Assembly: GCA_947034885.2 (NCBI GenBank)
Contig: OX344753.2
Coordinates: forward strand, 25,498,347-25,562,346
From: Thuidium tamariscinum
Lineage: Eukaryota > Streptophyta > Bryopsida > Hypnales > Thuidiaceae
Direction: 5' to 3'
DNA length: 64,000 nt
In this document: positions 4,660 through 39,538 of the stretch, one piece after another
How positions within the stretch are numbered: the first letter of the stretch is position 1
Layout: every line of letters starts with the position of its first letter
The notes under the pieces: model-generated
Database searches by the model: none
The model's input: the letters and a program-made list of their open reading frames with translations, nothing else
Told to the model about the DNA's origin: nothing
Position numbers and translations under genes: made by a program

Positions 4660-5535
4660 AGGATTTTTGAACCCTTATAGAGGCTTCTAGAATGGTCTCA
4701 ATTGAAGACCTTAATTGGATTTTGATGTGTACTTGTTAAGGTAGGTACAATTTTTTCTTCCTATTTCCACCCATATTTGACATCATGATGTTTACAAAAG
4801 TACATGCCTTTTATTTGGACAATGGGACACTAGGTACTTCTTGTCATTTAAATCTTAAGTACATTGAGCGATTATTTTATATGAAAAAGGACAAATTTAG
4901 TTCAACTAAATAGCGAATTTCGTTAAAATGGCGGTATTCCTTATGCCATTTTTTCAGACTGCGGTCTGAATTGAAAAATGACATCTAGGAAAGGTATAGA
5001 TTTCAAACATTTAGGACATATGTAGATTTTCAAAATCTATGACAAGTTTAGATTTCAGATTGCATGGTCCAAAACATCTTGGACAGATGTAGATTTCAAA
5101 CATCTACAACACATGTAGATTTCAAAAATCTATGACAAGTTTAGATTTCAGGCTGTGCGGTCTAAATTGTCAAAAATGTCAAACTAATGGAATACTGCCA
5201 TTTTAACGAAATTTGCCATCTAAGTACTAATGGCTCTTGAGTTTTTAGTACCATGAATTAACCTTTCTATTTATAAAAAATCATGGGTACTTCATACTCA
5301 TGATGTTTGCACTTTGAAATGAATCTTAGTGGACAATAAGACATTAAGTACTTTTTGTCATTCAACTCCTTGATTCTATAAGTGAATTCTTTATTTTGAC
5401 AAATTCATAGGTACTTGATGAAATTCCCACAAGATAGGGACACACAATATATACTTAGGCTATCATCTCTAACCTTGAATAAATAGCTTCGCACATCAAT
5501 TCGTAAGGGCCTCTTTGAAGGTTAAAAAATCTTCT
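4660..5535. mobile_element. Family E DNA transposon copy E2, carrying nested M1
   Basis: The termini AGGATTTTTGAACC and AAAAAATCTTCT form an inverted repeat. Its body aligns throughout with E1. A shortened remnant stands at the same place in block B (about 23936-24088), so this insertion is older than the duplication. Confidence 0.75.
4910..5219. mobile_element. Family M MITE copy M1 with CTAA duplication
   Basis: This is a 310-bp element with long terminal inverted repeats starting ATAGCGAATTTCGTTAAAAT and ending GAAATTTGCCAT. The flanks are CTAA at 4906-4909 and 5220-5223. E1 shows the empty site CAACTAAGTACTAATGG near 3155. The inside consists of short hairpin units built on TAGATTTCA and GCGGTCTGAA. 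No coding capacity. Confidence 0.9.
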
Positions 5536-5554
5536 AATGTCTTGCAAACCTTGA

Positions 5555-5704
5555 GACAGTGACAATTAGAATATTCAGCTTTAGGTTGTGTGGTCTAAAA
5601 TGTATTTTGCTTCAAGATTTCAAGACCATGAGGTCTGAAATCTATACCTGTCCTAGAAAATGAATGGAAAAATGGCGTATGAATACCGTCATTTTAACGA
5701 ACTA
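5555..5704. mobile_element. Family M fragment
   Basis: It has the GTGGTCTAAAAT and GAGGTCTGAAATCTATACC motifs and a terminal-like part with ACCGTCATTTTAACGAA, but the left half is missing. No flanking duplication can be defined. Confidence 0.6.
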
Positions 5705-6020
5705 TCTGTTCCAGGTTCATTACTCGACGGAGAATGATTCAATCCTGAGTGAGCAATCCTCCACAGGAAATCAAAAAATCTTCAACTCAAAATGCTTGGA
5801 ACTCGAAGCTCGATTCAGGTCCTCTGAATCTCATAAAGTCAATTTGTAGCTGTGTGTCTTTGGGAAGAAAATTAATTCTAAATAGATTCAAATGCAACAA
5901 ACTCAGGAAAACATTGGTTTTTCATTCGAGTGCTCGATCATTCTTTGGACGACTTGAGTTCGGTGAAATGCTGAAGTTTTGAAACGCAAGGCGTGGCAAC
6001 CTTATTACCAGTACATGTAG

Positions 6021-6178
6021 CATTAGAGAAAATCTGGACTCTCCAGAGGGCCGTTAAGAAGTGGCAAAAGGGACCCTCGTTACACTTTATACAGAAATCA
6101 AGCTTACACAGAATTCCTTATATAGTCTGGCTTGTCAAAGTTCGACAGCCCTCTGGAGAGTCGATATTTTCTCTAATG
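6021..6178. mobile_element. Foldback MITE, 158 bp
   Basis: Inverted arms of about 30 bp start CATTAGAGAAAAT and share GACTCTCCAGAGGGC. The element lies in a 620-bp stretch that block B lacks (A 5975-6590). Confidence 0.65.
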
Positions 6179-6428
6179 TTGACTTCTCCCGAAGTCCAAA
6201 CGTCCTTCCATAGTTGGACTTACCGTAGTTCAAATTTCAAAAGCCCCTCCATAGCTGGATTTTAATTTCCCGTGGTACAAAAGTCGTTTCCAGAGTTGGG
6301 TTCCCGTACGTGACTTGCGGGTTGTGCTCTCCTTTTTTGCAACGAATATCGTTTAATATGCTTCAGAAAGGAAAAAGAAAGTTGATTCAAATGCCACATC
6401 ATCTGAGGTAAACCAGCCCACTCCAGAG

Positions 6429-6552
6429 TCCAGAGCAAATGGCAGAAAGCTCATTCCGGGCTAAATTATGTTAGTTGTGTACATTCAAGTTTGGAAATGT
6501 ACACCACTCACATAATTTAGCCCACAATGGGCTTGCCCCCATTTGATCTGGA
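6429..6552. mobile_element. Foldback element, about 124 bp
   Basis: Near-perfect arms of about 50 bp begin TCCAGAGCAAATGG and share GGGCTAAATTATGT. It is absent from block B and lies some 320 bp upstream of the thaumatin-like start codon. Confidence 0.65.
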
Positions 6553-6599
6553 ATGGGATCATAGTTTCATTATCTTACATCATGGGTCAGGTGTGAATC

Positions 6600-6875
6600 C
6601 TGAGAGCATGTCATGATACACTTGTCATGACATAAAGGTTTACGTCATCCGTGGCACCCCGTCATCAGCCAAATGTTCAACCCTCGTGAAGTAAATTGTC
6701 GTCAAGGAGCAGAGCAGTTCTCAAGAATAAATACATTCTCCAAATCATCAGCATCAGCATCCAGTTCATGGACGTAATTGAGATTCACATGCTTGAGTTC
6801 AGTAGTGTTGCCCAAGCTCACCAGCGTACATCGCATTGAAATTAGGTTTCCGAGTTGCACTTCTTCTCAGCCAAT
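6600..6875 (+). promoter_or_regulatory. Proximal promoter and leader of the thaumatin-like gene, copy A
   Basis: About 250 bp upstream of the ATG is conserved with copy B (about 24590-24873). It includes TTACGTCATCC at about 6651, an ACGTCA core of the kind bound by TGA/bZIP factors. In copy B the matching site reads TTCGTCATCC, which breaks the ACGT core. An AATAAATA stretch at about 6727 may serve as an AT-rich core element. The transcription start is not known. Confidence 0.4.
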
Positions 6876-8039
6876 ATGGCCAACTTGTCCGCGAAAATCC
6901 GATTGCCAGCCATGGTTCTCACGCTGCTAGCAATCAGCAGCGCTGTTCAAGGTAAACTTCAGATGTAATTTTGTTTGAGCTTTGTTTTTGAAACTATATC
7001 TCACTGAGTGTGTACATTCATTTGATAGCTTGAAATCATTATCGATACACTTGGCATTCATTCACATTTCCTTATATTGTTTGATCATGTTTTACGGTCT
7101 GATCATGTCATTGACAAATTTGCAATAATAATTTATCAATTTATTCCATTGCAGGCACCACAATCAATGTCCGCAGCCAGTGCTCGTTTGCTCTCACAGC
7201 TTGTGATCAAGCTCAAGGCACCGGAGTCACTTGCTACGTCCTCAACAACGGGAACTCAAATCTTCTCAATGTGGGTACTGTCTGGCAAGGAGGTCTAATT
7301 TGGGGATTCCCAGGTGACAGTGGTAATTCAGATATGGGAAACCAAGCCAAGCCTGAAGCAAATCTTGCTGAGTTCACCATCGGCCTCAACGGCCAGGACT
7401 CCTATGACCTGAGCAATGTGGTAAATAATCAGGGTTATCCTGAACTTCATACTCATGCACGATCTTCAAAGCTAGCACTAGATTTTAAACCTTAACGAGT
7501 TGATTCATGCTAATCCAACATGCAAGGCTAGCTATTATTGATTCCAGTGACCAATGTTGATTAGTTTTTCGTGTTAACTAGATCATCATCGATCCTCTCA
7601 ATAGCGAGTACTGTAATGGAACTTTCCTGGATCGATGTGATGTTGTTTTCATTCGATCGAAGTCTGTACATACTAATCGGTTGCTGGGATGGATCGATGG
7701 CTGGCTGGGTGATGCGCGCGCATGCAGAACGCCTACAACCTGCCTCTGAAGATCAACCCCACTCAAATTGCGGGTGGGGGCGTGCGCAACGGTTTGCACT
7801 GCGGGAGTCCCAGCTGCACGATTCCAAACCTGAGCAGCTTCTGCCAGTCTCCCAACAAACTCACCCCCGCACCTGGAAATGGCTGCTACAACACCGACGG
7901 GACTGGCAACGTTGCCACCGCTGGAACGGAAGCCTTCAAGACGGCCTGCCCTGATGCGTATTCCTACTCCAAGGACGACGCCAATGATGTCTACGGCTGC
8001 AACCTCGGCAGCGACTACGAAGTGGTATTCTGCCCATGA
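6876..8039 (+). CDS. Small thaumatin-like protein (PR-5 family), copy A
   Basis: Exons 6876-6951, 7155-7420 and 7728-8039 join in frame to 217 aa, with GT-AG introns. Residues 1-25 look like a secretion signal (basic start, then a hydrophobic core around MVLTLLAISSA). The mature part starts near GTTINVRSQC. It has the thaumatin features AEFTIGLNGQ, SYDLSNVNAYNLPL and a C-terminal ACPDAYSYSKDD with EVVFCP. It contains ten cysteines, as in the short thaumatin-like subclass, rather than sixteen. The family is secreted, often to the apoplast, and is linked to defence and glucan binding. That role is inferred. Copy B differs at a few residues (for example SYDLS here against FYDLS in B). The start is the only in-frame ATG ahead of a signal-like segment. 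Confidence 0.88.
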
Positions 8040-8345
8040 TCGATCGTGAAATCAACCACGGCTACAGCCACGAATGGATACTCAGTTCACAATGCAATTG
8101 TTTTGCCGGTTTGAGCAACTGCAGTTCAGAAGGAGAAGGAGAGGAATAAGAACTCTAGCCTCAGGCTGGCGTGAATTAATAAGAGTCTGTTAGTTCATCT
8201 TGGGTCCCAGGCACTTGACATCCTCTTGATGACAAGAGTTGCACCAAGACTACGTACCTTATCTCCATTAGGAGGGAGAGACTCTATACTACTGGATAGG
8301 CAAACCACATGTCAAAAGGTTCCTGGTGGAGTGCAGGAATCAGGG

Positions 8346-8351
8346 AATAAA
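8346..8351 (+). terminator. Candidate polyadenylation signal, copy A
   Basis: AATAAA lies about 300 bases after the stop. A second one follows at about 8374. The first is conserved in copy B at about 26344. Confidence 0.4.
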
Positions 8352-8708
8352 TTTTATGTGTGTTTTGTGGAAGAAATAAAAAGGGTTGAGTTTTTATGGG
8401 GAGATTTGTACACCTTCTCGGCAGTTTTAGAAGCTTTTTTCTAAAGGAGATACATAAATAAGTGACCTGGAGAGTGTGGTTATTTTCTAGTTTACTCTTG
8501 TGAAGGAGTGTCTATACATGTTGAATATTTAATTGGAGTGTTATTAATGGTATTTAATGTTTTGTTAAAGATGATTTGGAAAGTTTAAATTCTTCATGGA
8601 TGTCATGGTTGCGTGGTTGGAAGAAGTATAGTGCCCATGGCACTTCTTAAACTTATGAGTATTGGCGGCTCTATGTTCTAGCCATAATTTCTTGTACATG
8701 ATTGCATT

Positions 8709-9178
8709 TGCTCCCACTTAAATATAGGGCATCAAATGGTGTGCTCAAATTCTAGTGTTGCAATAGGGGTAAGGTGGAGTACCTATTCTGGTTGCTTTAA
8801 GCAATTCCACATACTTTGAGGTGAACTCAACCCTGACATGAAATTATTTTTAACATGTTGGCAATTGAAAATAATGAATTTTATATTAAAAAATGATCAT
8901 TTTCTAAATTTGTATGAATATGCTGCATATGAAGGAGTGCTTTCTTTGCCTCATACAAATCAAAGTGCCATGTCATCATATTTTTTAAATTGGATTTCGT
9001 CAAACATCCATCATGAAAGTGCTCAGTGATTTTGGTAGTAATGCCCAGGCTCTGTAATTCCACACATACTTGGATAAGCCTCAAGTGAGTGTAATACGAT
9101 TCACCTTGTGCCGTCAAATTCCTGTACTTAAAATTTTGTATTAATGTGATGAGACTTTGAGCTGTACATAATTGTATT
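8709..9178. other. 470-bp segment absent from block B, bounded by 15-bp repeats
   Basis: It lies between GTACATGATTGCATT (8694-8708) and GTACATAATTGTATT (9164-9178). Block B has one such repeat near 26681-26697 and nothing between. Either this is an insertion with a long target duplication or B lost the segment by recombination between the repeats. I see no poly(A) tail and no coding sequence. Confidence 0.7.
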
Positions 9179-9408
9179 GGGATGCAGTCACGATCCCAAA
9201 ACTAATCCACGAGATTCAGGGGACTCTAATGGACACTCTAGAGCAACCGAATCAGCAACTCAGTTCCTGTATCGTAACTTGGAACTTGTGCAAAGGGATC
9301 TTATATTCTTAATTTCTTATAATTAGCATATTCTTTGGTCAGTCCCTCACCCTGCTGTCCCTGCCTCACAGAACTTTCAGCTTATGCTCAGCTTTGGTAT
9401 CTTCACAG

Positions 9409-9697
9409 ATGGTGAATTTTGTTAAAATGATGGTATTCTACATGCCATTTTACAGATCGCACAATCTTAACTGAAAAGGGACATTTAGGATTGGTGTAGA
9501 TTTTCAAACATCTAGTACTCATATAGATTTGAAAAATCTATGATGAGTTTAAATTTCAAACTGTACAGTTTGAAACATCTTTAAATGGTATAGATTTCAA
9601 AAATCTCATTTTTCTGATTTAGATTTCAGACTGCATGATTTGAACTGTAAAAAGTGTCAAAGTAATGTAATTCCACCATTTTAATGGAATTTGCAAT
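9409..9697. mobile_element. Family M MITE copy M2
   Basis: The termini are ATGGTGAATTTTGTTAAAAT and GGAATTTGCAAT. The flanks ACAG/ACAT agree at three of four bases. A truncated copy stands at the same place in block B (27223-27262), so this insertion is older than the duplication. Confidence 0.8.
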
Positions 9698-10314
9698 ACA
9701 TGTGTAGATTGAAGTAAACATATTGACACTCATCATGCTCCTTAGCAGGAGATTGAACTCTAATATACATTTGACATGTGTCAAGGTATTCAAATCAAAG
9801 CGCTTCTGAATCAGGAATTCAGGATTCTACGCCCAAATAATAATAGACTGTCCTGTAAAACTGAACAGCCCAAACCGAATTTCTGATTTTGAAACAGAAC
9901 AATGAAGCATGTTGTTCGTAAATAATGGTAACATCAAATTTCTGGAGTGCCACTTTTGTGAACGAGGGTGATTGTTCTTATGATTCATATAAAAGAGACA
10001 AAAAATTTACTTGTTTTAGGTAGTGGCTATAAATTTTACATTCAAGCAAATACACCATGATTGGCATTGTCAACTATAACTATCTCTCTAGTAGGAGATA
10101 GATGTTGGGAATGCTTTGATTCATCAAACAATGTGGTGACAAAATGTCTTAAGTAGTGAAGATGTGTCAAAGGTGGCACTAAGCTTAGTCACTTAGTCTA
10201 ATATTTCCCTTAACCCCTGAGCGTGGGCCTATAGGATAGAATGTGGCCTCTCCCAAGTTTTTGGAAACCAAATGGGAACCAGGTCGTGGGTGTACTCAAC
10301 GGAATTCGAGTACA
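9698..10314. other. AT-rich spacer
   Basis: I see no gene. A TTAACCCCTGAGCG motif at about 10200 looks like one end of a family P element, but I found no convincing partner. Confidence 0.6.
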
Positions 10315-11739
10315 AGGTGATTGCAAGAAACACTTGTCCTATTTTGTATCACACGTTGCATGCTAATCTGTTTTTTGGCCATAACTTTTGTGTTTTAGTT
10401 CCAATTGACTCAAGATTTGTAGGGAAGGTACTCATAACTATCATAAGCCTTCCATAATTTTTTCATAATTTTATTATCCAAAAATAGACCTTGATTGGAT
10501 GTCACACTTGGTAGTTTAGGGATTTTTAGTACTGGGGAATACCTTTTTTTCATGATTTTAACATGAAATTTGGATGAGATGGTCTTCTAGTAGACTTCTA
10601 GCTCTCCAAGGAAGGATTTTAAAAAATAGTTAATTTTATGTGGTCTACAAAGTGAGCTCCCTTTTGCTTGTATTTTGAAACATATAAAATATTATTATTA
10701 TTGTTTTTTTGGTGAATGACCATCTCCATAAAGTTTTTGCAAATGGAAATCTTTTATTTTTTGAAAATATCTATTTTTACTATTTTTCCCTAATTAAAAC
10801 ATGAAGATATGCATTTTTTGGAGGTTTGGCACTTTTCAAGTTCTCCTATTGGGTCAATGCAAGAAAGACCGACCAATTTATGTAGCGTTTTCCACAGTAC
10901 TGCTGAAATTTTTGGGAGTACTGTATAATTAGAAAAAAAAATTTTAAAAATGTAAAAAATATGTTTTAGGTATATACCTCTAAGAAGAAGGTACCCTAGG
11001 AAGGAAAAGTGTAGGAAATTTCTCTAAGTAGGAGAACTAGAAAAGTGCAAATTTTCATGAAAATAGGTACTTTTACATTTTAATTTGTAAAAAATAGGAA
11101 AAAGAATCTTTTAAAAAAACAAAAATTGTCAATTGGGGAGAACTTTATGATGAAGAGATTTCACCAAAAGAATGATTTCAAAACCATCTTAAATGTTCAA
11201 AAGTATGCACACAAGGGAGGCCTGTTCACGCACTTGTAGAGGAAAGAGAATAATGATTTTTACGATTTCCTTTGGTAGAAACATGCCTACCTAGTATGGG
11301 AATAGGCCACATAAATTTCAGCTTTAGATCATTAATTTTGGATGCTCCCCAGTACTAAAAAACCCTAAACCGCAAAGTGTGACAAATTAGCTTAATTGAA
11401 ATTTAATTATAAAATGATTTTTGAAAATTTCTGAAAAATAAGGAATTTGATTGTTGTCATGTCAGACATCTTTATTCAAAATTTCAAGTTAATACAGTTC
11501 ACACTTTAAGAGTTATAATCAATAACAACTCCGTCATTCAAAGTGTACCGGTCTTTCTTGCAATCACCCTATTTAGAGAATTTTTCTATCCATTTCCTTC
11601 GGTGAAAACCTTCATCTTAAAGGTATATTCATTATTCATATTTTTCAAAAAAAATTAAAATTAATTTCCTAATTTTAAAGTAGTCCCAAAAAAATCAGCC
11701 AAACGCAACAAATAGGACAAGTGTTTCTTGCAATCACCC
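10315..11739. mobile_element. Family T DNA transposon copy with TACA duplication, carrying a nested T copy
   Basis: The termini AGGTGATTGCAAGAAACA and GTTTCTTGCAATCACCC form the inverted repeat. TACA flanks both ends (10311-10314 and 11740-11743). It is interrupted at 10851-11579 by another copy of the same family. Without that it is about 690 bp, like the copy at 1028-1762. No transposase. Confidence 0.85.
10851..11579. mobile_element. Nested family T copy with TATT duplication
   Basis: The termini GGGTCAATGCAAGAAAGACC and TCTTTCTTGCAATCACCC enclose 729 bp, flanked by TATT at 10847-10850 and 11580-11583. The uninterrupted relative at about 1578 reads CTCCTACTTAGAGAATTTTT across the same point, which shows the insertion is self-into-self. 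Confidence 0.85.
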
Positions 11740-11743
11740 TACA

Positions 11744-12300: not shown

Positions 12301-12518
12301 CACTAGTAGAAACCCCCGTTTAATGTGACGAGGTCTAATTTTTCTTAATAGATTTTGGTAGGCATCAAAAGTAACAACCCGTGTTTTTATGTTAGCATTG
12401 ATGTTGTGTTGACCATTTTTGTTGACATAAAAACACAAGTTGTTAGTTTTGATGCCCAGCAAAATCCATCAAGAAAAATTAGGCCTTGTCACATTAAACG
12501 GGCTTTTGGTTCTGATGC
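12301..12518. mobile_element. CACTA-ended foldback element
   Basis: It begins CACTAGTAGAAAC and ends TTTTGGTTCTGATG, a decayed form of the CACTAG...CTAGTG ends common among plant CACTA transposons. Two arms of about 95 bp pair with few mismatches around a loop of about 20 bases near 12407. A transcript would fold into one long hairpin. Confidence 0.75.
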
Positions 12519-12708
12519 GTGAGCTTGACACCCGCTTCCTCGACAGCATTAGACCTAGACCTAGACCATACCCAGTACTTGTATAGTTCACATCTTGCCT
12601 ACTTTAGGCGCCTCAAAGATGCGGTGCTTTGGAAATATGTAATCTCCACCTTTACGTGGTACTGAAAAAGATATCTGGGTATGGTCTAGATCTCTTCAAT
12701 TCCGACTA

Positions 12709-16194: not shown

Positions 16195-17417
16195 TAATGT
16201 GTTACCATCCCATTGGCAACCCGTAATCTAAATTCCAACTATACTAATTCAAAATAGTGTGACTTTGGTCTTTGGCAAATTTGTGTCACATGCACTTTGA
16301 AGACAAATCAATTTTGGAAGTGTTGTGTTTTTAGAGTAGTCACTTCTAGTGCTAGAGATAAAGAAGGAGGCTCGAAAATTCCTTAGGCTTGAAAACCGCC
16401 TACCTTCCAAAATGTACATGGTTTGTAGATGGGTTTTTTTTCATCTTTACAAAAATGTACAATCAATGTACATTTGAAGGGGTGAGTGGTTTTAGAGCCC
16501 TATGCCATGTCAACTTCAAAAAGTCATAATTAATTCCAAAAAGCTCAAAAAAATATGAAACAACTTGGGTTAGAGGTCAATTCTACCCATCTTTCAAGGA
16601 AATATTTTTGAAAAATAATTCAAGAAGTTTCACTTCTTTAGAATTCAATTTTAGATCTTAGATGGGTGCTTTTTGAACCCTCTCCCTTAATTATGATTCT
16701 CAACATTGGACGATACTTGCCGTGTAGCACACTATGCATCCCTTAATTATCAATGCATCAGTCATTGAAATTCTCATCTTCAAATTACTTTAAAAATTCT
16801 TGAATGATCCGCCATTTTTGTTCTCATTCTAATGCTTGGGGAAGGGCTACACTAAGGTACAAATTGGATAGTTTGCGTTAGAGCATTCCCATGCCATACA
16901 TGGCAAAGAGGGGCGCCAAAGCCTAATTTGGAGTGCTCTGTCAATCAACCCGAGCCTTGTGGTTTTCCCTTGTCCCATTCTTAAAACTTTATTTGACATG
17001 CCAAGAGAGGAGCTCATCAATTTCGCACAAGTACCCAAAACGGATAAGCTTCATTAGGCTAATGAGATGCATCTTACGAGTGACTTTGCACACAATACTC
17101 ACCTTTTTGTATTTACAATTCTAAGGACCAAGAACTAATCTGCAGATAGTACCTCAGTAACTGAATCAGATTACATAGCGTGCCACGCTTTACACACACA
17201 ATTTGGTTGTGCCCCCATCAAAGTATGGAGTTGACATTTGTTTTTTTCCATTTAGCAAGTCTGGCATGGGGCTCTCCCATAGCCTTGGCCCTCCCAATGA
17301 GCATGTTTTGCCTATTTAGCGTGTTGGCATGGAGATGCTCTTAAACTTCAAGTTTAACTATTCCTAATTAAATCCATGAAATTGAAGGACGAAGTTGGTC
17401 AGAGATTAATTGCATTC
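16195..17417. other. Spacer with a decayed family G element
   Basis: About 16395-16692 matches one half of the family G elements at 35389 and 42874 (AAAAAATATGAAACAACTTGGGTTAG-like core). The rest shows no gene. Confidence 0.55.
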
Positions 17418-21128: not shown

Positions 21129-21758
21129 ATGGCAAATTTCGTTAAAATGGCGATATTCCTTATGCCATTTTTCACACAGCAAGCTCTGAACTAAAAACTA
21201 ACATCTAGAAACGGTATAGATTTCAAACATCTAGGACTCATATAGATTTTCAAAATCTATGACACATTTAAATTTCAAACTACATAGTCTGAAATGTCTT
21301 CGACAGGTGTAGATTTCAGACAATCATCTACAACACATGCAGATTTCAAAAATCTATGACCATTGTAGATTTCAGACTGCGCGATCTGAACTGCCAAAAG
21401 TGTCAAACTAATGGAATAATGGGGAATTTCGTTAAAATGGCGGTATTCCACATGCCATTTTCACACCTTGACATCTAGGACAAGTATACATTGCTAATAT
21501 CTAGGACACTTTTAGATTTCTGAAATCTATGACAAGCATAGATATTAGACCAAACAATCTAAAAAATCTAGGATTGGTATAGATTTCAGAAATCTAGGAG
21601 AGTTGTAGGTTTCCAAAATCTAGTACAGGTGTAGATCCTAGGATAGAAAAAACGGTTCAGACCGCGCAGTCTAAACTGCTCAAAAGCGCCAATTTAACGA
21701 AATGGCGCCATTTTAACGAAATTTCCCATAATACCGCCATTTGAACCAAATTCGCCAT
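21129..21758. mobile_element. Family M MITE copy M3 with CGAC duplication, carrying nested M4
   Basis: The termini are ATGGCAAATTTCGTTAAAAT and CAAATTCGCCAT, with CGAC on both sides (21125-21128, 21759-21762). Block A has the empty site CTAACAACCCTTTTAC near 1858. M4 is inserted near its right end. Confidence 0.9.
21419..21729. mobile_element. Nested family M copy M4 with AATA duplication
   Basis: It begins ATGGGGAATTTCGTTAAAAT and ends GAAATTTCCCAT. AATA flanks both sides. Removing element and one AATA restores the family consensus GGAATACCGCC of M3, which is strong evidence for a 4-bp duplication. Confidence 0.9.
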
Positions 21759-21835
21759 CGACCCTTTGCAAGGGCCACATTTCCTATAATGGTTTTGCCA
21801 AGGACCGAGTTGCAAATATTCTGGCGCTGGTCTCT

Positions 21836-22285: not shown

Positions 22286-22597
22286 ATAGCGAATTTCGTT
22301 AAAATGGCGGTATTCCTTATGCCATTTTTTCAAACTGTGCGGTCTGAATTGAAAAATGACATCTAGGAAAGGTATAGATTTCAAAAATTTAGGACATATG
22401 TAGATTTTCAAAATCTATGACAAGTTTAGATTTCAGACTGCATGGTCCAAAACATCTTGGACAAATGTAGATTTCAAACATCTACAACACATGTAGACTT
22501 CAAAAATCTATGACAAGTTTAGATTTCAGGCTGTGCGGTCTAAACTGTCAAAAATGTCAAACTAATGGAATACAGCCATTTTAACGAAATTCACCAT
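22286..22597. mobile_element. Family M MITE copy M5
   Basis: The termini are ATAGCGAATTTCGTTAAAAT and GAAATTCACCAT. The flanks TATT and AATA do not match, so a target duplication is not evident here. It is very similar to M1 inside. Confidence 0.85.
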
Positions 22598-22839: not shown

Positions 22840-23935
22840 TAAGAGCTTCCTACCTTACCTCCAAGTTGCACCACGAGTTCTTTAAGAAGATTATCGAAGT
22901 GATTGACTTTCATGCACATGGCGAATTTCGTTGAAATGGCGGTATTTCTTATGCCATTTTTCAGACCGCATGGTTTGAATTGAAAACTAACATCTAGGAA
23001 CTGTGTAGAATTCAAATATCTAAGACATTTGTAAATTTTCAAAATCTATGACTAGTTTAGATTTCAAACCGCACGTTTTTAAACATCTTATACAGATGTA
23101 CATTTCAAACATCTACAACACATGTAGATTTCAAAAATCTATGACTCTTGTAGATTTCAGACCGCACGGTCTGAACTGTCAAAAATGTCAAACTAATGGA
23201 ATACCGCCATTTTAACGAAAATAGCCATGCGCCTACAAAAGCTCTCATTGCAAAAGGTGCACCAAGATTTATTTAATCACATTTCTGAAGGGATTGACTT
23301 TGTGCACCCACAAAACTCTGCAAAAGGTGCACCTAGAGTTCTTTAATCACAATTCCGAAGGGATTGACTCCGCCGTGCACATACAGAACTCTGCAAAGGT
23401 ACACCACTGGAGAGTTCTTTGATGAGATTTGCTAGCTAGGGTCCAGAATATGAACTTCGACATTGTATACCGACATTTGGATGTGCGACAAGTGTACAAC
23501 TTTCAGTCGATTCTGGTATGACAAATGTGCACGTCAAGAGGTCTGACTAGGTGTGATTTCTGTTCCTCTCGATGTCCATCTCAGCCTCATTGCATGCATC
23601 ATTCACGCTAAAAATGAAGCAAGCAGTCCCCGAAGTCAATCACGTACTCACATCACTTTCATATATTGGTAACTATTTGCACGACTTTCGCACCTTCCGA
23701 CTTCCGAGGCACGCGCCTTGAAACCTCGGTCGACCCAATCGTAGTTCTTGCTGTCTTAGTTTCTTTTGCGAATGATGCAGCTTCAAATCCGATAGTTCCA
23801 GACAGTCCTTTTGTCTTGCGGGATTTCGCAGTACGCTAGCTATCCCTCTGGACAGAAATTGGCGTATGAAGCAAACTAAGTGAGCAGGGTGCCACACGTG
23901 CAAAATAAAACGGCTGCTACTCTGCATGATAGTTC
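22840..23935. other. Block B copy of the low-copy conserved segment, right part
   Basis: It matches 3805-4655 of block A, is interrupted by M6, and has two rather than three 70-bp tandem units at about 23246-23390. No gene is recognised. Confidence 0.5.
22918..23228. mobile_element. Family M MITE copy M6 with GCAC/GCGC duplication
   Basis: The termini are ATGGCGAATTTCGTTGAAAT and CGAAAATAGCCAT. The flanks are GCAC (22914-22917) and GCGC (23229-23232). The empty site CTTTCATGCACCTACAA is at about 3860 in block A. Confidence 0.9.
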
Positions 23936-24088
23936 CATTAGAGGATTCTTAAACCCCCAAAGAGGCTTCTAGAATGGTCTCAATTGAGGACCTTAATTGG
24001 ACTTAAATGTGTACTTGTCAAGGAAGGTACAATTTTTTTCCCCTTATTTCCACCCATTTTTGACATTGTGATGTTTACAAAAGTACAT
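23936..24088. mobile_element. Family E remnant
   Basis: AGAGGATTCTTAAACCC starts a copy matching the first 150 bp of E2. The remainder is deleted. The position matches E2 in block A. Confidence 0.65.
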
Positions 24089-24217
24089 GCTTGAAAATCA
24101 AAGCTCGATTTAGCCATTCAATTCCTCTGAATCTCATAAAGTCAATTTGGAGCAATGAAATCTTCGGGAAGAAAGTTCTAGATAGATTCAATTGCAACAA
24201 ACTCAGGAAAACATTAA

Positions 24218-24530
24218 ATGGCAAATTTTGTTAAAATGGTGGTATTCCATTAGTTTGGCACTTTTGATAGTTCAGACCGTGCGGTCTGAAATCTACATTG
24301 ATCATAGATTTTTGAAATCTACATGAGTTGTAGATGTCTGAAATCTTGACCTGTCCAAGATGTTTTGGACCGTGCGGTCTGAAATCTAAATCTATCATAG
24401 ATTTCGTAAATCTATATAAATCTTAGATGTTCAAAAATCTATACTAGTCTTACATACCAATTTTCAGTTCAGACTGCACGGTCTAAAAAATGACATTTGG
24501 AATACCACCATTTTAACAAAATTGACCAAT
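24218..24530. mobile_element. Family M MITE copy M7, reverse orientation
   Basis: The termini are ATGGCAAATTTTGTTAAAAT and CAAAATTGACCAAT. The internal GTGCGGTCTGAAATC units run opposite to M1. The empty site AAAACATTGGTTTTTC is at about 5910 in block A. The duplication is blurred by mutation. Confidence 0.85.
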
Positions 24531-24873
24531 TTGGTTTTAATTTTCAATCGATCGTTCATTCTTGGACGACTCGAGTTCGGTGAAATAGTGAGAGTATGAC
24601 ATGACGCACTTGTCATGACATAAAGGTGTTCGTCATCCGTGGCACCCAGTCATCAGTCAAATGTTCAACCCTCGTGAAGTAAATTGTCGTCAAGGAGCAG
24701 AGCAGTTCTCAAGAATAAATACATTCTCCAAATCATCAGCATCAGCATCCAGTTCATGGACGTAATTGAGATTCACATGCTTGAGTTCACTAGTGTTGCT
24801 CCAGCTCCCCAGAGTACACTGCATCTGTCTTCCCGTGGAAATTAAGTTTCCAAGCTGCCCTGCTTGTGCCAAC

Positions 24874-26048
24874 ATGGCTGACTTGTCCGCAAAAATCCGA
24901 TTGCCAACCATGGTTCTCACGCTGCTAGCAATCAGCAGCGCCGTTCAAGGTAATGGAGTAATTTTGTTTGAGCTTTGCTTGAAACTAGATCTCACTGTGT
25001 ACATTGATAGCTAGAAATCATTATCGATACACTTGGCATTCATTCACATTTCCTTCTATTGTTTGCTCATGTTTTGCGGTCTGCTCACCAATTACGTACC
25101 CAATCGATCATTCCGGCATGTCAATGACAAATTTGCAATAATAATTTATCAATTTATTCCATTGCAGGCACCACAATCAATGTCCGCAGCCAGTGCTCGT
25201 TTGCTCTCACAGCTTGTGAGCAAGCTCAAGGCACCGGAGTCACTTGCTACGTCCTCAACAACGGGAACTCACAGCTTCTCAATGTGGGTACTGTCTGGCA
25301 AGGAGGTCTAATTTGGGGATTCCCAAGTGACAGTGGTAATTCAGATATGGGAAACCAAGCCAAGCCTGAAGCAAATCTTGCTGAGTTCACCATCGGCCTC
25401 AACGGCCAGGACTTCTATGACCTGAGCAATGTGGTAAATAATCAGGGTTATCCTGAACTTCATACTCATGCACGGTCTTCAAAGCTAGCACTAGATTTTA
25501 AACCTTAACGAGTTGATTCATGCTAATCCAACATGCAAGGCTAGCTATTATTAATTCCAGTGACCAATGTTGATTAGATTTTCGTGTCAACTAGATCAAC
25601 ATCCTCTCACTGGCTAGGACTGTAATCGAACTTTCCTGGATCGATGTGATGTTGTTTTCATTCGATCGAAGTGTGTACATACTAATCGGTTGCTGGGATG
25701 GATGGCCGGATGGCTGGGTGGTGCGCGCGCATGCAGAACGCCTACAACCTGCCTCTGAAGATCAACCCCACTCAAATTGCGGGTGGGGGCGTGCGCAACG
25801 GTACGCACTGCGGGAGTCCCAGCTGCACGATTCCAAACCTGAGCAGCTTCTGCCAGTCTCCCAACAAACTCACCGGCGCACCTGGAGATGGCTGCTACAA
25901 CACCGACGGGACTGGCAACGTTGCCACCGCTGGAACGGAAGCCTTCAAGACGGCCTGCCCCACTTCGTATTCCTACTCCAAGGACGACGCCAATGTGGTC
26001 TTCGGCTGCAACCTCGGCAGCGACTACGAAGTGGTATTCTGCCCCTGA
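24874..26048 (+). CDS. Small thaumatin-like protein (PR-5 family), copy B
   Basis: Exons 24874-24949, 25168-25433 and 25737-26048 join in frame to 217 aa with the same intron positions and phases as copy A. The signal segment, ten cysteines, AEFTIGLNGQ, FYDLSNV and C-terminal EVVFCP are intact. Differences from copy A are few and cluster in exon 3 (GTHC for GLHC, TGAPGDG for TPAPGNG, PTSYSYSKDDANVVFG for PDAYSYSKDDANDVYG) and in exon 2 (SQLL, PSDSG, DFYD). The family consensus DAYSY in the C-terminal half is kept in A and changed in B, while FYD is kept in B and changed in A. Both copies look functional. A secreted defence-type role is inferred from the family. Confidence 0.88.
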
Positions 26049-26343
26049 TCGATCGTGAAATCAGCCACGGATCGGATACTCAGTTCACAATGCAATTGTT
26101 TTGCCGGTTTGAGCAACTGCAGTTCAGAAGGAGAAGGAGGAGAATAAGAACTCTTGCCTCAGGCTGGCGTGAATTAATAAGAATCTGTTAGTTCATCTTG
26201 GGTCCCAGGCACTTGACATCCTCTCGATGACAAGAGTTGCACCAAGACTACGTACCTTACCTCCATTAGAAGGGAGAGACTCTATACTACTGGATAGGCA
26301 AACCACATGTCAAAAGGTTCCTGGTGGAGTGCAGGAATGAGGG

Positions 26344-26349
26344 AATAAA
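26344..26349 (+). terminator. Candidate polyadenylation signal, copy B
   Basis: AATAAA lies about 296 bases after the stop, in the same place as in copy A. Confidence 0.4.
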
Positions 26350-26825
26350 TTTTATGTATGTTTTGTGAAGAAATAAAAAGGGTTGAGTTTTTGTGGGGAG
26401 ATTTGCACACCTTATTGGAAGTTTTAGAAGCTTTTTTTTCTGAAGGGGATACATAAATGTGTTGCTCAGAGAGTGTGGTTATTTTCTAGTTTACTCTTGG
26501 GAAGGAGTGTCTATACATGTTGAATATTTAATGGGAGAGTTATTAATGGTATTTAATGTTTTTTTTAGAGATGATTTGGAAAGTTTAAATTCTTCATGGA
26601 TGTCATGGTTGGAAGAAGTATAGTGCCCATGGCACTTCTTGTTATGAGTATTAGCGGCTCTATGTTCTAGCCATAATTTCTTATACATAATTGCATTGGA
26701 ATGCAGTCACAATCCCAAAACTTTTCCATGAGATTTAGGGGACTCTAATGGACACTCCAAAGCAACCAAATCAACAACTAAGTTGATGTATTATAATTTG
26801 GAACTTGTGCAAAGGGATCTTATAT

Positions 26826-27133
26826 ATGGCAAATTTTGTTATAATGGCAATATTCCTTATGCCATTTTTTAGTCTTCACAATCTGAACTAAATTTTAGCA
26901 TCTAGGAATGGTATAGATTTCAAACATCTAGGATACATGTAGGTTTTCAAAATCTATGACACCATTAGATTTTCATACCACGTGGTTTGAAATATCTTGG
27001 ATAGGTGTAGATTTTAGACATCTACAATGCATGTAAATTTCAAAAATCTGTAACAGTTCTAGATTTCAAACCGTGTGGTCTGAACTGTCAAAACTAATTA
27101 ATGGAATACTGCCATTTTAACGAAATTTGCCAT
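26826..27133. mobile_element. Family M MITE copy M8 with ATAT duplication
   Basis: The termini are ATGGCAAATTTTGTTATAAT and CGAAATTTGCCAT, flanked by ATAT at 26822-26825 and 27134-27137. Block A has the empty site GATCTTATATTCTTA near 9298, with a single ATAT. Confidence 0.9.
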
Positions 27134-27222
27134 ATATTCTTATAATTAGCATATTTTTTGGTCAGTCCCTCACCCTACCCCATAGAACTTTCAGCTTATG
27201 CTTAGCTTTGGTATCTTTACAG

Positions 27223-27262
27223 ATGACAAATTTTGTTAAAATGGTGGTATTTCACATACCAA
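27223..27262. mobile_element. Truncated family M copy (ortholog of M2)
   Basis: Only the left terminus with TTTTGTTAAAATGGTGG remains. The left flank equals that of M2 in block A. Confidence 0.65.
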
Positions 27263-27289
27263 GCAATATTCAAAGGACAATAAAGCAGA

Positions 27290-32700: not shown

Positions 32701-34426
32701 TGGACAACGCGAGTAATGTGACGGTCGAAATGAGCGGAAATCTCACAGCACCTACGGAACGTGCTTAATTTACCTTCGCATTCACCCCGCAGCCAGGACG
32801 CAGCTCAGTTGCTGCAGAAACGAACTCTTTTCCATATTTCGCGACAAACATAGGACGGATCTGGGCAAAATCAGGTAATTCAGCACATCTTGAAGACGCA
32901 TATAGCAGGGTCGATATATTTTCCTTGAGATCCGGAGGACAAGTCCTGTGTACAACAACAAATAAATAAGCGCTAAAGAATAGCCCATAAATCCAACGAA
33001 GAAAAGAAACACAATAGATGCTTCAGAAACACTCCTGCCGGTCAAACCGAGAGTGAATTGGGAATGTACATGAGCCTCAAATATTGGCAGAAATTTTACT
33101 TTTGAGAATCGATAACCGATAGCTGTGCCGCTATTCGCTCCGCATAGAGAGAAAGCAAGTCATAAGCTTCAATAAGATCCTGCTCTATTATCACATGCTC
33201 AACCTGTAATCACAAAACCCAATCATAAGAACTACTGGATAAAACATTCGATTCCCAACGTCATCCAACTATAGGCTTGCAGATATACTCTTTTCACTGG
33301 AAGTGGAGACACTTACAAGCGATAATATCAACAAGAAATGCAGCTATGAAAAATTGAAAGATAAACTTTACGAGATAACATCCTTTGCTGATAACAAGTC
33401 ATCAACAGTAGCATTGAGAAACATATTCATCACTGCGAGACAGAAGAGTGGACACACCAGTAATCGAGCATTGTTGTCTTGCTTATTCCGCAAGAGCTCA
33501 GCAACTTCTCTTCTGTCGGATGCAATCTGTGCCAATTTTTTGTTTCGCAACAGCTTGATTCGAGACGTCCCTAACCGAAGTTGAGTTTTGCTGCAGAATA
33601 GAAAACTTGTCTCAGTCAGCACCTAATGGCAAGATTTTCTTGACTCGGAAAAGTTTGAACTGAAGTTCACAACCCATGGTCTGGGTTAAAATTTCCCTTT
33701 TCTAAACAATTCATACCTGGACAGATCTGACGTGGCCCACCATACTTAAGTTTCGACTAGATCCAAGGGCAACTAATTACACTAGGAGACATATATGATA
33801 AAAGCAGAACTTAGACAGATCCTACTTCACATAGCAGCGAGCACGCAAGCCAGAATTCCAAATGCCAGTATAACCCTAAACAAAAGTGAACCTCCACGAA
33901 GGACTTTTTACACCCGATGAGCCTAAACACTGCGGTAGAGTACGTTCATAACGTAACCGAGCTCACGGTTCCAGTGAAATGCATGAATGATAACACTGCT
34001 GTCATAAAGTACAGTGGGAGGCCTCCCCCCGAAGGCCTCCCGCTGCGTTAAGCACTATTCAGCTAGCACTGTTTTTATCGTGCCTGGCACCGTAATCAGT
34101 GCCTGGCACGACCATAGGGATATTCTGGACTATAATATTGAGTATTTTATTAAGGGAACTCGCTGAATAGGGCTTAACGTGAAGAAAACAAATGATGCAG
34201 AAGATACTCAAAGTATTATCAGGCGGATTCCACATGACAAGGGAATTAGTGAACAAAGACCAAAACGAGAAGGGGCAATCAACCTAAGCGCATCCTGTTA
34301 TTCCGCTGCCCTATCTGCTGAATAAACAACTGCATGAATCATTGTGTCGTTACCATATGACAAAGAAAAGAGTCGGGCGTCTTACCACTTCGAGGCCTGA
34401 AAGCCTTTGACAAGTAAGGAGTTCAT
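29787..34426 (-). CDS. IST1-like protein (ESCRT-III-related, Vps4 regulator family)
   Basis: Six minus-strand exons join in frame: 34386-34426, 33458-33590, 33100-33203, 32774-32945, 32423-32563, 29787-32252, giving 1018 aa. Residues 1-175 form the IST1 domain, with MNSLLVKGFQASKCKT, SRIKLLRNKKLAQI, VEHVIIEQDLIEAYDLL and KLRLLKEIAAEHNVDWDP. In yeast and plants this fold binds ESCRT-III CHMP1/Did2 and modulates the Vps4 ATPase during multivesicular body sorting. The roughly 820-residue tail is one exon. It is rich in D, E, R, K and S, is predicted disordered, and holds five 26-residue repeats (about 407-530). It ends in a conserved-looking KPPDLDSLIKMFATKK. The tail is long for the family. The start is fixed by exon 1 restoring the K-C-K-T motif across intron 1. 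Confidence 0.92.
31236..31628 (-). repeat. 78-bp coding tandem repeat in the IST1-like tail
   Basis: About five units of 78 bp each encode 26 residues around KGRxQHExxYPEEDKLxR followed by VSNRDGS. The middle three units are closest to each other, which suggests recent expansion. Confidence 0.9.
34016..34041. other. GC-rich hairpin in IST1-like intron 1
   Basis: GGGAGGCC and GGCCTCCC pair perfectly around a 10-base loop. It lies directly beside a foldback element at 34046. Confidence 0.8.
34046..34179. mobile_element. Small foldback MITE in IST1-like intron 1
   Basis: The inverted ends CGTTAAGCACTATTCAGC and GCTGAATAGGGCTTAACG are separated by about 100 bp, with a further inner hairpin on GTGCCTGGCAC. 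Confidence 0.65.
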
Positions 34427-35100
34427 TTTTTTCATTCCTCAGTCGCCCACCCCACTTAAAACGTGCGCCTCAAAGCCACCCCACCCGAATAAACCCTCGA
34501 ACAACCTCGTCACCAATTCAGACCTTCTCCGACTCACCAAAAAAACGCATAACATAAAGTGACAGCAGACTGCCTATCTCTAGATCCGAGATAAACGCCA
34601 ACTAAAATGTGCTCAAACCTCGACGAAAACGTCAATAATAATCTACAACAAAACAGATTCAATCTAACAACAAGAAATAACAGCACGCAATCCTGGAGCG
34701 CCTCTCACAGACATCCTCCGCCACACCAAAATCGAACAACTAAGCTGAAGCACTCCATAGCAGAACCTTGTCTCTTTCACGCCATCTCGAAAACCCCAGA
34801 GACCAAGACTTCTACTCCACTACACTGCTCCGACCCTACCGCCCCGCGGAACCTGTTTGCCCAGAAATTTTCAAATAATAAAAACTAATCGCGAAAAGTA
34901 ACAACTGTGCTGCCGAGTGCCGACGAAAGTGACGAATAATTTAGGGAAGCACCTCCTCGAACACGGCGCGCACAGACTGAGACGCGTGAAACGAGCTCCG
35001 CGGAGTCAACGCAGACTAAGTTAGCCGATCGATGTCTGCAAGCGATCACCGATCTAGGGTTTTGAAAATTTGGAATGATGGGGGACTCAGTAAAGGGGAG
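34427..35100 (-). promoter_or_regulatory. 5' leader and promoter region of the IST1-like gene
   Basis: This is a GC-richer stretch upstream of the start codon. The plus strand contains CTAGGGTTTTGAAA at about 35055, whose complement is a short AAACCCTAG box common near plant transcription starts. The exact start is unknown. A 93-codon plus-strand frame here is not convincing. Confidence 0.4.
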
Positions 35101-35149
35101 AATGGCAATGTCAAGGAGAACACTGGCATTGCCGTGTAAGAAAATTCTG

Positions 35150-35388
35150 CTTCGGAGCTCGAAGTTGCCGTCGCGAGTAGGGCGGGAAGCTTGGAAGGAA
35201 CGGGGATCGGGGGACGGGGGGAGCACTTGTTGCGAGGGTTTTAACGGTCGCTGGTTCAAATCCCCGCTGGGACCCTTCAGCTTTCAGTTGGGCAGTTGTC
35301 CCTTTCGGCTGGTGGCGACACCTGGCTTTGTATGGATGGTCCCATGCGCTGCCTTTCAAGTTTGAAAAGGTCGTCGGCTTGTTGTGTC
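35150..35388. other. GC-rich patch with a tRNA-like B-box
   Basis: GGTTCAAATCC at about 35252 matches a pol III B-box. A paired acceptor stem and an A-box at the right distance are not seen, so this is not an intact tRNA. It might be the decayed head of a tRNA-derived SINE. Confidence 0.3.
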
Positions 35389-35717
35389 TAAGGTAAGAGG
35401 TCCTATAATGGACCATCTAAGGGCCGAAACAGAATTTCAGGGAGGTAAAACTTCTAGAAATATTTTTCAGTAAAATTTCCTTGACTAACAAGTAGAATTG
35501 ACATCTAACCCAAGTCGTTTCATATTTTTCTAAACTTTTTTGAATTAGTTATCAAATTTTGAAGTTGAAAGGGCATAGGGCTCTAGAATGGTGCCCTAGC
35601 TAAAATGTACACTCAGTACACTACTGAAGGCTATGAAAAAGCAACATGTACAAGTACTATACATTTAAGATAGGGCACCATTTTAGAACCCGCTCCATTT
35701 AAGAGCCTTTTACCTTA
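35389..35717. mobile_element. Family G MITE copy G1
   Basis: The ends are TAAGGTAAGAGGTCC and the complement of TAAGGTAAAAGGCTC. Inside are two inverted copies of a GGTGCCCTA block near 35590 and 35680. It is the reverse complement of G2 at 42874. Confidence 0.7.
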
Positions 35718-36259
35718 AGGTAAAAACACCTAAATATGACATTTATTTAAAATCTGCACATCTTGAAGGTAGCTATTGAATAAAATGATGTGAGCTTGTT
35801 AGGAAATGGTTTTAGAAAATCGGTATATTTGATTTCATATTTCTTCAACCTTGTATAATTTCTTAAAAAAACTACATAGATGCACCTATTATGGATATTA
35901 GATTAATACCAAAGAGGATACGGAAATACCCAAAAGTCACACAATATAAGCTTGGATCAAATAGAAGTGATTGGTCAATGTAAGATTTGGCTTTAATTAT
36001 GACAATGATAACTTTTTGGAACTTCACTTATTTACTTTTGAAATTCAACTATCTACTTTGCGTCTACTTGCATTTGGATTTAGGTCGTTTGGTAGGTATC
36101 AAAGAAAAACTCTTGTTACATTTGGAAGCTTCTACCTTAATAAGAGCATGAAGAAGCTACTAAAAGTACCTATTGTAAAGTAAACATGCCTATCATTGAC
36201 TAGAATTTACTATCTACAATATGTACTTTAGAAGAGCTATTTGTCAACTGACATATTTT
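35718..36259. other. AT-rich spacer
   Basis: I see no gene. The longest frame (70 codons at 35971) has no recognisable features. Confidence 0.6.
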
Positions 36260-37215
36260 TTAACCCCTACAAGTTTTTGACTATATTTTCACCAAAAGTA
36301 CCTCTAAATTGCAATTTCTAATACAATTGCAAAATCTTAGGAAAAAAACATTTTTTTGACACATATAATTGTAGGATCTTGTATTAATGTGGTTTGAAAA
36401 GATGTGGAAAAAATTTCAAAAATTTCCACTATGTAGATTGCAAGATATTAGCATTTAAATTGACAAAAATCTTTTTTTATCCCTACGAAAATCCAGGTAG
36501 CTGCACTTCACAAGGTCACATTTGCGTGAAAAAATGTTCAAAATGGTAGTTACTCTTTGAATTCATCCTTTAATGCAGGTTAGCTACGTGCTCAAAAAAA
36601 TTCAAATCATTTGGGATTGTACAACATTTAGGAAAAAAACAGTAAATAGAAAGAAGTAGAAAATGATTCAAAATACTAAATTGTGAACAATTTATTTATA
36701 AAAATGAAAAATGTAAATCCCAATTATGGTTGTAATATTTTAATAAACAATCTTCACACAATGTTTTAATTTTTTTTCAGAAATATTAAAAATTGAATTA
36801 AAGAAAAGATTTCAAACTATTTTTGTTCAATAGAGATTCTATAACTACCCACAAAGTACCCCGAACTAAAACTCCTCACAACTTTTGACTCATTAATCAA
36901 AATAGAATGATTCAAAGTTTTCTATATAGATATAAATCTTATAAAAAAAATTCAAATTTTATTTCTCAAAAAAATAATTTTTGAAAAGTTTTTTTAGCTG
37001 CCTTGGCTATCCACCAAATTAAAAAAATAACATATCATGCCATAACTATTAAACCATGAAATCAAAAAATTTGAAAATTGTTGGGCCTTAAAGATACTCT
37101 TTGGGCACATGTTGTGTGAAAATTTCAAAGAAATAAAATAAAAACTCCATTTGCAATGAGCTTCCTGAAATCACTATGTTGCTGAAAAAACATAGTTTAG
37201 GGCTTTAGGGGTTAA
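36260..37215. mobile_element. TTAA-flanked family P element P5
   Basis: The left end is TTAACCCCTACAAG and the right end the complement of TTAACCCCTAAAGCCC, both at TTAA. It is 956 bp, very AT-rich and non-coding. The ends match over only about 11 bp, so the boundary call is moderate. Confidence 0.5.
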
Positions 37216-38664
37216 AGATTGAGAAGTTTGGAAGAAGTCATTTGCAAGTAAAACCAAGACATTTTGGCTAGAATTGAAATTTTTTGTGATCCTTCAAAGT
37301 AAATTAGGACTAAATTGGTAATGCCTAAGTAGATCTATACCAAACTTCAAGTTAACATGTTCCTTCCCTAAATACATTTGTCATGATGCCACAAAGTTGA
37401 TAAAATTGTTTTAATGGCTAGGAGATTAATATAAATGGGAGAATTCAATAGATGTCAAAATTTAGTGACTAATGGCATTGGGTTGTTCTACCTTATATAA
37501 TTGACTACTAACAATAAGTCTCTACTCTAAAATTATGTTCACACAAAAGGATATTCATCACAAAAATTTTAGATCCTAGACACATTTCTCCCCAAAGATG
37601 TACTCTATAATTGTTCAAAAGCAAATATGTTTGTTAATATATTTATAAATAACGTCAATTTTATAACGTCAATTTTCTAGACACTTTTCAAACATCCAAC
37701 CCTTTGCACAAATCACCCAAAAAAATCTATAATCAAATCTACTACTCCATTCTTCCAATCTTTGACTTTGTCAATGAAAGCACACTAATTTGGTCAAGAA
37801 AAAATATATAAGGAAATTACGAATTAGACAACCTTGCCAATTTAGGTTGTCTAAAATAACATCCCCTTCTAAAACATGAACATGAACTTGTTTACCATGT
37901 TACATCATATAAAGGACCAATTTATTTTATCAATTTTTGTTTGTACAAATTAGAAATTCCTCAATGAATATTAGATGTTTTTCAACCATGTAGTAGATTG
38001 TTTTGGGATTGTTTCCCAAAACTGTTCCTTATACATTGTATTAATGAGTATTCGTCTAAAAAAATTTTAAAACCAAAAAATCAAAAATTTCAAAAATATT
38101 AAAAAATATTAAAAAAGTGAAAATTGATTTAATTTTTTTTTAAATCATTTTTAAAATATTTAATAATTATTTTTAAAATTTGAAATTTTATTATTATCTG
38201 ACATGGCAGTCTCTCAACCACATCAAACTGCCTATGTGGCAACATTCCTAAAGTTCCCATAGCTCAAGAACCCGCTATTTTTTAAATGTCCAAAAAACAT
38301 CTAATGTCACTTCAAATGCATTATTATCCCAATAATTCTCAAGCATTGAAGAAAGGCAAATCATTCAAACATCAATAAGTCCTTATCAAATAAATTTTGG
38401 ACCATAACTTCCATATCATATGTCCAAATTATACACCTCCTGAAATTTCAATATAGAAAATATGTCAAACAAGTCCACAAACATCTTTTTCTAGCCTACT
38501 TAACATCCATCTCTACTTTGCACACTATATAATTTATGGCAACAAATTGATAAGTTGATACATTTACTACTATTTTATTGAACCCACCTAAATATCAAGC
38601 CCTACACATCCAAAGATATAATAAAGTATTTCACGAAATATGTAAATTATTACCATCATATACT
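37216..38664. other. AT-rich spacer with a decayed family F copy
   Basis: About 37990-38285 matches family F in reverse (TTTCCCAAAACTGTTCC at one side, TGACATGGCAGTCTCTCAACCAC and GTTCCCATAGCTCAAGAAC at the other). The remainder shows no gene. Confidence 0.5.
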
Positions 38665-38850
38665 AATGCTCCAAGAGAAAGGGGTGTTTTTAAGTATAAT
38701 CCTAGTAGAATAGTCTTTTAAGTAATAACTTTTAAATAAGCCGTTTTTAGTAAATTTTTGATGAAAATTGCATTAAAGGTCATTACTTATAATTTGATGT
38801 TTAGGACTATACTTTAAAATTCACTTAAAACACCCCTTTCTCTTGTAGTG
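38665..38850. mobile_element. CACTA-ended foldback element
   Basis: The right end reads as CACTACAAGAGAAAGGGG on the minus strand. The left end CTCCAAGAGAAAGGGGTG is the decayed partner. Arms of about 80 bp pair loosely. Confidence 0.65.
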
Positions 38851-39226
38851 AAGGGAACTTTAAAAGGAAAGTAGCCCATTTAAGAGCTAAAATCCTTCCT
38901 TATGGAAAATGGCTTCAATGCACTTTGCAAAACAAAAAGAAGACTTTTATAGTTAATATGCCTTGCCAAATTTTTCATTTAAGTTGCAAAATCAAAAGTC
39001 ACTTGTCAATTTTATATGCCCTAACTACTCAAACTTTCACTTTATTGGAACTCTTTTCCTTAATGAAATAGGTTATAAACTTTTATGATATTTTAAAAAG
39101 TTTACAACATTATCTATGGTACCAAGACACACTATGAAAGGGCATGGTAGATTAAGATAGAACAGTCCCAATCTATCAATCACCCAATTCCAATATCTAC
39201 TCAACCTTTCCATTTACACTAGTCAT
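38851..39226. other. AT-rich spacer
   Basis: I see no gene or element. Confidence 0.6.
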
Positions 39227-39538
39227 ATGGTGAATTTCATTAAAATGGTGGTATTCCATTAGTTTGACACTTTTGATAGTTCAAACTGCAAGGTCTGAAA
39301 TCTACATATGTCATAGATTTTTGAAATCTACATGTGTTGTAGATGTCTAAAATCTAGACCAGTCAAAAATGTTTCAAACCGTGCAAGTTGAAATCTAAAT
39401 CTATCATAGATTTTAGAAATCTACATGAATCCTAGATATCTAAAAATGAATACTTATCATAGATTCCAATTTTCAATTTCATTCGTGTAGTCTGAAAAAT
39501 GGCATTTGAAATACCTCCATTTCAACAAAATTCACTAT
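39227..39538. mobile_element. Family M MITE copy M10, reverse orientation
   Basis: The termini are ATGGTGAATTTCATTAAAAT and CAAAATTCACTAT. The flanks TCAT and TCAC agree at three of four bases. It is more diverged than the block B copies, and so probably older. Confidence 0.85.

Follow-up and report, generated by a model that had tools for sequence, protein, structure and literature searches.

A repeat of about 311 bp, here called the M element, occurs as nine near-complete copies and two fragments in a 64-kb stretch of the genome of the moss Thuidium tamariscinum (C5:25498347-25562346; referred to below as the window). The M repeats are very probably non-autonomous DNA transposons with terminal inverted repeats, i.e., miniature inverted-repeat transposable elements (MITEs), that are moved in trans and insert at target sites opened by cuts staggered by 4 bases. 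They have inverted ends and a target duplication, are present in many copies, and are shorter than 800 bp, the size limit given for MITEs in PMC5199201 (this and the other publications are cited from excerpts). The assembly searched comprises 363 Mb in 19 contigs.

Inverted ends and 4-bp target duplications

The 30-bp end consensus, ATGGCGAATTTCGTTAAAATGGCGGTATTC, is present on both sides of all nine window copies, and the elements are bounded by ATGG at the left and CCAT at the right. With a scoring matrix made from these same ends, the lowest of the 18 ends scored 30.8, while the highest score in 20 simulated 64-kb sequences was 19.0, which bears out the inverted ends of about 30 bp described in the initial annotation of the window. 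Arms belonging to a single element are weakly more alike than arms of different elements (mean 25.67 versus 24.94 of 30), a difference reached in 754 of 20,000 permutations. In the genome, a 24-base pattern of the inner end is matched exactly 1,056 times (527 forward and 529 reverse), against 0 + 0 for the reversed control, and a second pattern, for ends differing in base 31, matches 44 + 40 places. The exact end pattern had no matches in viral contigs or in bacterial/archaeal contigs.

The copies are 289–312 bp long, except that the one at 21129 spans 630 bp since it is interrupted by the copy at 21419 (BLAST and profile). The latter is nested inside the right end of 21129, which argues for transposition. 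An M element is present at each of the nine positions first proposed, and both fragments were located (Table 1). A profile search re-detected every copy at E 4.2e-71 or better; as the profile was derived from these same nine copies the search is circular, and serves as a check of coordinates only. A weak extra profile match at 40422-40478 (E 2e-4) was excluded from the copy count.

Flanking sequences of the nine window copies agree at 29 of 36 letters when read at a length of four, and agreement at lengths of 2, 3 or 5–11 does not rise above background; mismatched left/right pairs give 0.278 matches per letter. A total of 29 matches was reached by 1 of 100,000 random flank pairings and by none of 20,000 random sets of nine sites. 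The 4-bp flanks are perfect in four copies (4910, 21129, 21419 and 26826) and match at three of four letters in three others (9409, 22918 and 39227). The flanks of 22286 would read ATAT/ATAT if one extra base were permitted per end, and this copy is not counted as perfect. In a scan that gave both boundaries up to 3 bases of play, certain settings of length 2 and 3 had higher scores per letter, and these are taken to be parts of the 4-bp repeat itself and of the inverted ends. For lengths of at least 4, the highest ranked of the 12 top settings was the 4-bp repeat at the original boundaries.

A tabulation of flanks from copies elsewhere in the genome, set out beforehand as a test that might refute the 4-bp duplication, was carried out on 64 copies, and four is the only length above background in the range 2–10. 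The sample consisted of 60 stretches covering 73 of the first 100 listed exact end matches, all on contig C1, leaving out eight loci that repeat stretches among the 60 and six places in a repeated segment. Choosing exact matches on one contig favours younger copies. The stretches contain 64 end pairs, with 4-bp flanks that are perfect in 48, match at three of four letters in 12, at two of four in one and at one of four in three; eleven ends that were unpaired in the stretches were omitted from the count. The mean match at length four is 0.910, versus 0.334 for mismatched pairs, and lengths 2, 3 and 5–10 are at background. Perfect duplications are mostly A/T and comprise 38 different words among the 48 (ATAT five times, ATAA three times, the others once or twice), in keeping with the earlier description of duplications that share no sequence. 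TTAA, CCGG, CCGT, ACGG and TATA were seen in none of the 48. Compared pairwise, the left flanks of the 64 insertions share at most 30 of 40 bases, a further point in favour of transposition.

Paralogous sites that lack the element were sought by joining the flanks of each window copy, minus one copy of the four bases, and searching the joined sequence against the window. Such sites support five window insertions, two of them blemished, and again favour a transposon origin; the five duplications read from them at first (CTAA, CGAC, AATA, GCAC and ATAT) are correct. The empty site of 4910 is clean. That of 22918 has a clean junction, with a 5-base gap slightly further on, and to the right of the element the duplication reads GCGC. 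For 21419, seven alignments to the right ends of other copies span the junction, six of them reading GGAATA; other M copies act as its empty site because 21419 inserted into the right end of a family member. The empty site of 21129 is 76% identical to the joined flanks, reads CAAC instead of CGAC and has a 1-base gap, and the paralogue of 26826 carries 8 extra bases. These extra bases (9290-9320) resemble a local tandem duplication. A candidate empty site for 24218 (5813-5969) cannot be read, and the joined flanks of 9409, 22286 and 39227 gave no spanning site within the window. The inverted ends, together with the paralogous sites without insertion, rule out an origin of the repeats as a satellite or from long terminal repeat elements.

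Parts of the window are themselves duplicated. The segments 3945-9447 and 23228-27261 correspond in pieces at 80–91% identity, broken by several M insertions, and could be used for dating M insertions relative to the duplication. The fragment at 27223 is the same insertion as 9409, truncated and copied with the duplicated segment.

Table 1. Positions of M elements and M fragments within the 64-kb window
Feature	Position	Strand	Details
M element	4910..5219	+	310 bp; duplication CTAA/CTAA; empty paralogue 3032-3270
M element	9409..9697	+	289 bp; flanks ACAG/ACAT; truncated at 27223 in paralogous segment
M element	21129..21758	+	split by nested 21419-21729; CGAC/CGAC; diverged empty paralogue 1763-1940 (CAAC)
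M element, young ATGGGG subfamily	21419..21729	+	within right end of 21129; AATA/AATA
M element	22286..22597	+	312 bp; 97% like 4910; flanks TATT/AATA (2/4)
M element	22918..23228	+	311 bp; flanks GCAC/GCGC; empty paralogue 3796-3993
M element	24218..24529	-	flanks TTAA/TTTG (2/4); right boundary uncertain
M element	26826..27133	+	308 bp; ATAT/ATAT; element-free paralogue 9187-9443, 8 extra bases
M element	39227..39538	-	312 bp; flanks TCAT/TCAC
M fragment	5580..5702	.	end-like site 5710 scores 17.4, inside simulated range
M left-end fragment	27223..27261	+	paralogue of 9409 insertion

Subfamilies, interior architecture and sequence decay

One subfamily has spread recently. Copies of the 21419 type (ATGGGG/ATGGGA-type ends) make up 13 of the 64 sampled copies and are 95.8–99.7% identical to one another (mean 98.2%); window copy 21419 is 97.4–99.4% identical to these 13, and their duplications are perfect in 12 cases. 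From this similarity the 21419 type may be read as a recent burst. A sister subfamily with ATGGTC-type ends, assigned from the end letters, accounts for 29 of the 64 copies (20 with perfect duplications), and includes loci L013, L018, L038, L045, L056 and others among L009-L068. The remaining 22 copies, 16 of which have perfect duplications, were not classified one by one.

The interior of M consists of palindromes and hairpin units. From the 30-bp end inwards there is a palindrome, CAGACCGnnCGGTCTG, then TAGAT/ATCTA hairpin units spaced at 26 bp, a second palindrome, more units, a third palindrome and the opposite 30-bp end; in the consensus, the halves of the interior can be aligned as repeated modules. 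All three palindromes are found in six of the nine copies, two in two copies and one in the remaining copy, if as many as 6 mismatches are tolerated. The interior of repeated hairpins that had been noted at the outset is thus present, as 26-bp units. Describing the whole element as palindromic holds in a loose sense only: the copies are 61–68% identical to their own reverse complements, although all nine exceed all 30 shuffles. Two copies that were folded did so far better than shuffled sequence, with z-scores of -9.65 (4910) and -8.89 (22918).

The sister subfamily shares the inner end of M and has an interior of direct 21/22-bp units that resemble the inner part of the end. Spacings between unit motifs (n=186) are 21 or 22 in 110 cases, 19 in 23 and 42 in 20. 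All but two of the 29 sister copies are shorter than 300 bp, and these 27 fall into lengths of 161–163, 184–185, 205–206, 224–231, 246–248, 268 and 288–289 bp. This ladder has a period of 21.0 bp (Rayleigh R 0.936; nominal p 5e-11, uncorrected for the scan over periods). In one of the short copies, L040 (288 bp), few units were seen. The two longer sister copies (418 and 662 bp) contain unrelated sequence, as judged by reading. MITEs with internal tandem repeats also have an interior of repeated short units; the sister subfamily differs in that its 21/22-bp unit resembles the inner terminal repeat and its lengths form a 21-bp ladder. In M the internal units are the 26-bp hairpins together with three GC-rich palindromes, in the sister subfamily the direct units; in both groups they probably serve as sites for protein binding. 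They were probably multiplied through slippage or unequal exchange and, in the sister subfamily, would be derived from the ends. The ladder provides a natural series for asking what number of internal units is required by a transposase.

Transitions among the M copies affect 43 of 174 CpG sites, 132 of 841 other C/G sites and 69 of 1735 A/T sites. Decay of CpG alone is insufficient to account for the variation, because transitions at C/G sites outside CpG are also frequent relative to A/T sites. An excess of C/G transitions would be expected of methylated, silenced DNA.

Outward-facing end pairs about 880–914 bp apart were met four times in 217 kb (C1:29763911-29980476), which suggests a larger repeated segment. 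One of the four, L010, carries two family elements.

Proposed course of transposition and candidate sources of the enzyme

The proposed course of transposition begins with an autonomous relative, which is predicted to supply a DDE/D-type transposase in trans. The enzyme would bind the common ends of about 30 bp and move the element, presumably by cut-and-paste, into a target whose two strands are cut 4 bases apart. Repair of the gaps would then give 4-bp duplications of AT-rich, otherwise free sequence.

Several observations weigh against this account. Two of the nine window copies, 22286 and 24218, match at only two of four flanking letters and have no readable 4-bp repeat, and the same lack of a readable repeat applies to 4 of the 64 copies in the genome sample. 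The sampled copies, the longest of which is 662 bp, showed no transposase with these ends. By BLAST coverage and reading, the five longest (363, 418, 532, 617 and 662 bp) look like MITEs with additional units or unrelated inserts. A Pfam search of 10 of the 24 window open reading frames of at least 130 aa returned no transposase, the outcome being one cation efflux protein, one S10/plectin protein and eight blanks. Three orphan ends (L049, L058 and L062) lack a partner over about 6 kb; in the longest open reading frames near them, read by eye only, no transposase was recognised. These could be the ends of long elements or broken copies; the outer bases of L062 are degenerate. One long candidate, C1:29441823-29444452, was rejected as two separate MITEs.

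Among the known classes, Sola is the likeliest source of the enzyme, with an undescribed class coming next. The special case that we favour, tentatively, is that a Sola transposase (a DDD enzyme producing a 4-bp duplication) drives the family, which would make the M elements plant Sola MITEs. Sola elements have 4-bp duplications and inverted ends of 11–1124 bp, and are reported from the moss Physcomitrella and seemingly uncommon in flowering plants in the excerpt of PMC10741241. Insect MITEs of Sola1-3 have been catalogued (PMC5199201). A 4-bp target duplication, short copies and inverted ends of tens of bases are features that the M family has in common with Sola MITEs.

That the mobilising enzyme belongs to a class of DNA transposon undescribed in plants, or undescribed altogether, is somewhat less likely than the Sola reading. 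A 4-bp duplication of free sequence combined with ATGG...CCAT ends fits no class that could be checked by its defining features, Sola excepted, and a MITE survey of 207 plant genomes lists mainly five superfamilies plus Micron, as far as the excerpt goes (PMC12550479). On the other side, a 4-bp stagger is known in more than one class. A more specific form of it, and a speculative one, would have the transposase of an undescribed plant class bind a site of about 21 bp (two helical turns) in the terminal repeat, and growth or shrinkage by whole sites would then generate the 21-bp ladder of the sister subfamily. A literature search for 4-bp plant MITEs or plant Sola did not find the family described; Repbase and P-MITE sequences were not covered by it.

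Movement by an integrase-like transposase of Ginger or GingerRoot type is improbable. Ginger1, Ginger2 and GingerRoot resemble the M family in having inverted ends and 4-bp (4–6 bp) duplications, and Ginger elements with duplications of 4–6 bp are reported in plants (PMC10741241). The initial comparison with plant superfamilies was incomplete in this respect, omitting both Sola (4 bp) and Ginger (4–6 bp), which the same source reports from plants. However, the excerpt of PMC2836005 gives TGTNR ends for both Ginger1, with CCGG or CCGT/ACGG as targets, and Ginger2, with RTATAY targets, and Ginger ends are described as 40–270 bp long and of the form TG...CA (PMC10741241). The M family differs in its ATGG...CCAT ends of about 30 bp and its free, AT-rich targets; these ends, and the absence of CCGG, CCGT, ACGG and TATA from the perfect duplications, contradict Ginger1 and Ginger2.

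It is very improbable that the M family belongs to one of the usual plant classes (Tc1/mariner, PIF or CACTA, hAT, Mutator) and that its boundary was misread. These five superfamilies share with M a short length, AT-richness, inverted ends and many copies, and contain most described plant MITEs according to the excerpt of PMC12550479. Their duplications are 2, 3, 8 or 7–12 bp long, compared with 4 bp in M, and the paralogous sites show the 4 bp directly. PIF/Harbinger and CACTA elements produce 3-bp duplications and hAT elements 8-bp duplications; flank agreement at lengths 3 and 8 is at background. The same is true of length 2, the TA duplication that defines Tc1/mariner, and, within the Mutator range of 7–12 bp, of lengths 7–11 in the window and 7–10 in the genome sample (both definitions from PMC10741241). 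The misfit with the five superfamilies pointed out at the start is upheld, four being the only length above background among those tabulated in the window (2–11) and in the 64 genome copies (2–10). TTAA, the target of piggyBac and Kolobok (PMC9587614), is likewise absent from the perfect duplications.

In a scheme of mainly five superfamilies plus Micron (PMC12550479), a plant family of high copy number that was active recently and makes clean 4-bp duplications marks a gap. The M family, very probably mobilised in trans, points to a recently active plant transposase class, either Sola-like or new.

Other features of the window

The window gave no Rfam match at gathering thresholds, and ARAGORN found no tRNA. 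Another family of repeats, which contains palindromic stretches, lies at 35387-35708, 42882-43205 and 16490-16689, the first two being 87% identical. An inverted repeat at 12310-12507 has 88-nt arms that are 85% complementary, separated by a 22-nt loop. A fragment of ribosomal protein eS10 encoded in the window has its best matches in six solved eS10 chains of plant ribosomes, which makes a land-plant host probable. The eS10 coding sequence lies in a direct duplication (46953-48816 and 52902-54751) that is 94% identical.

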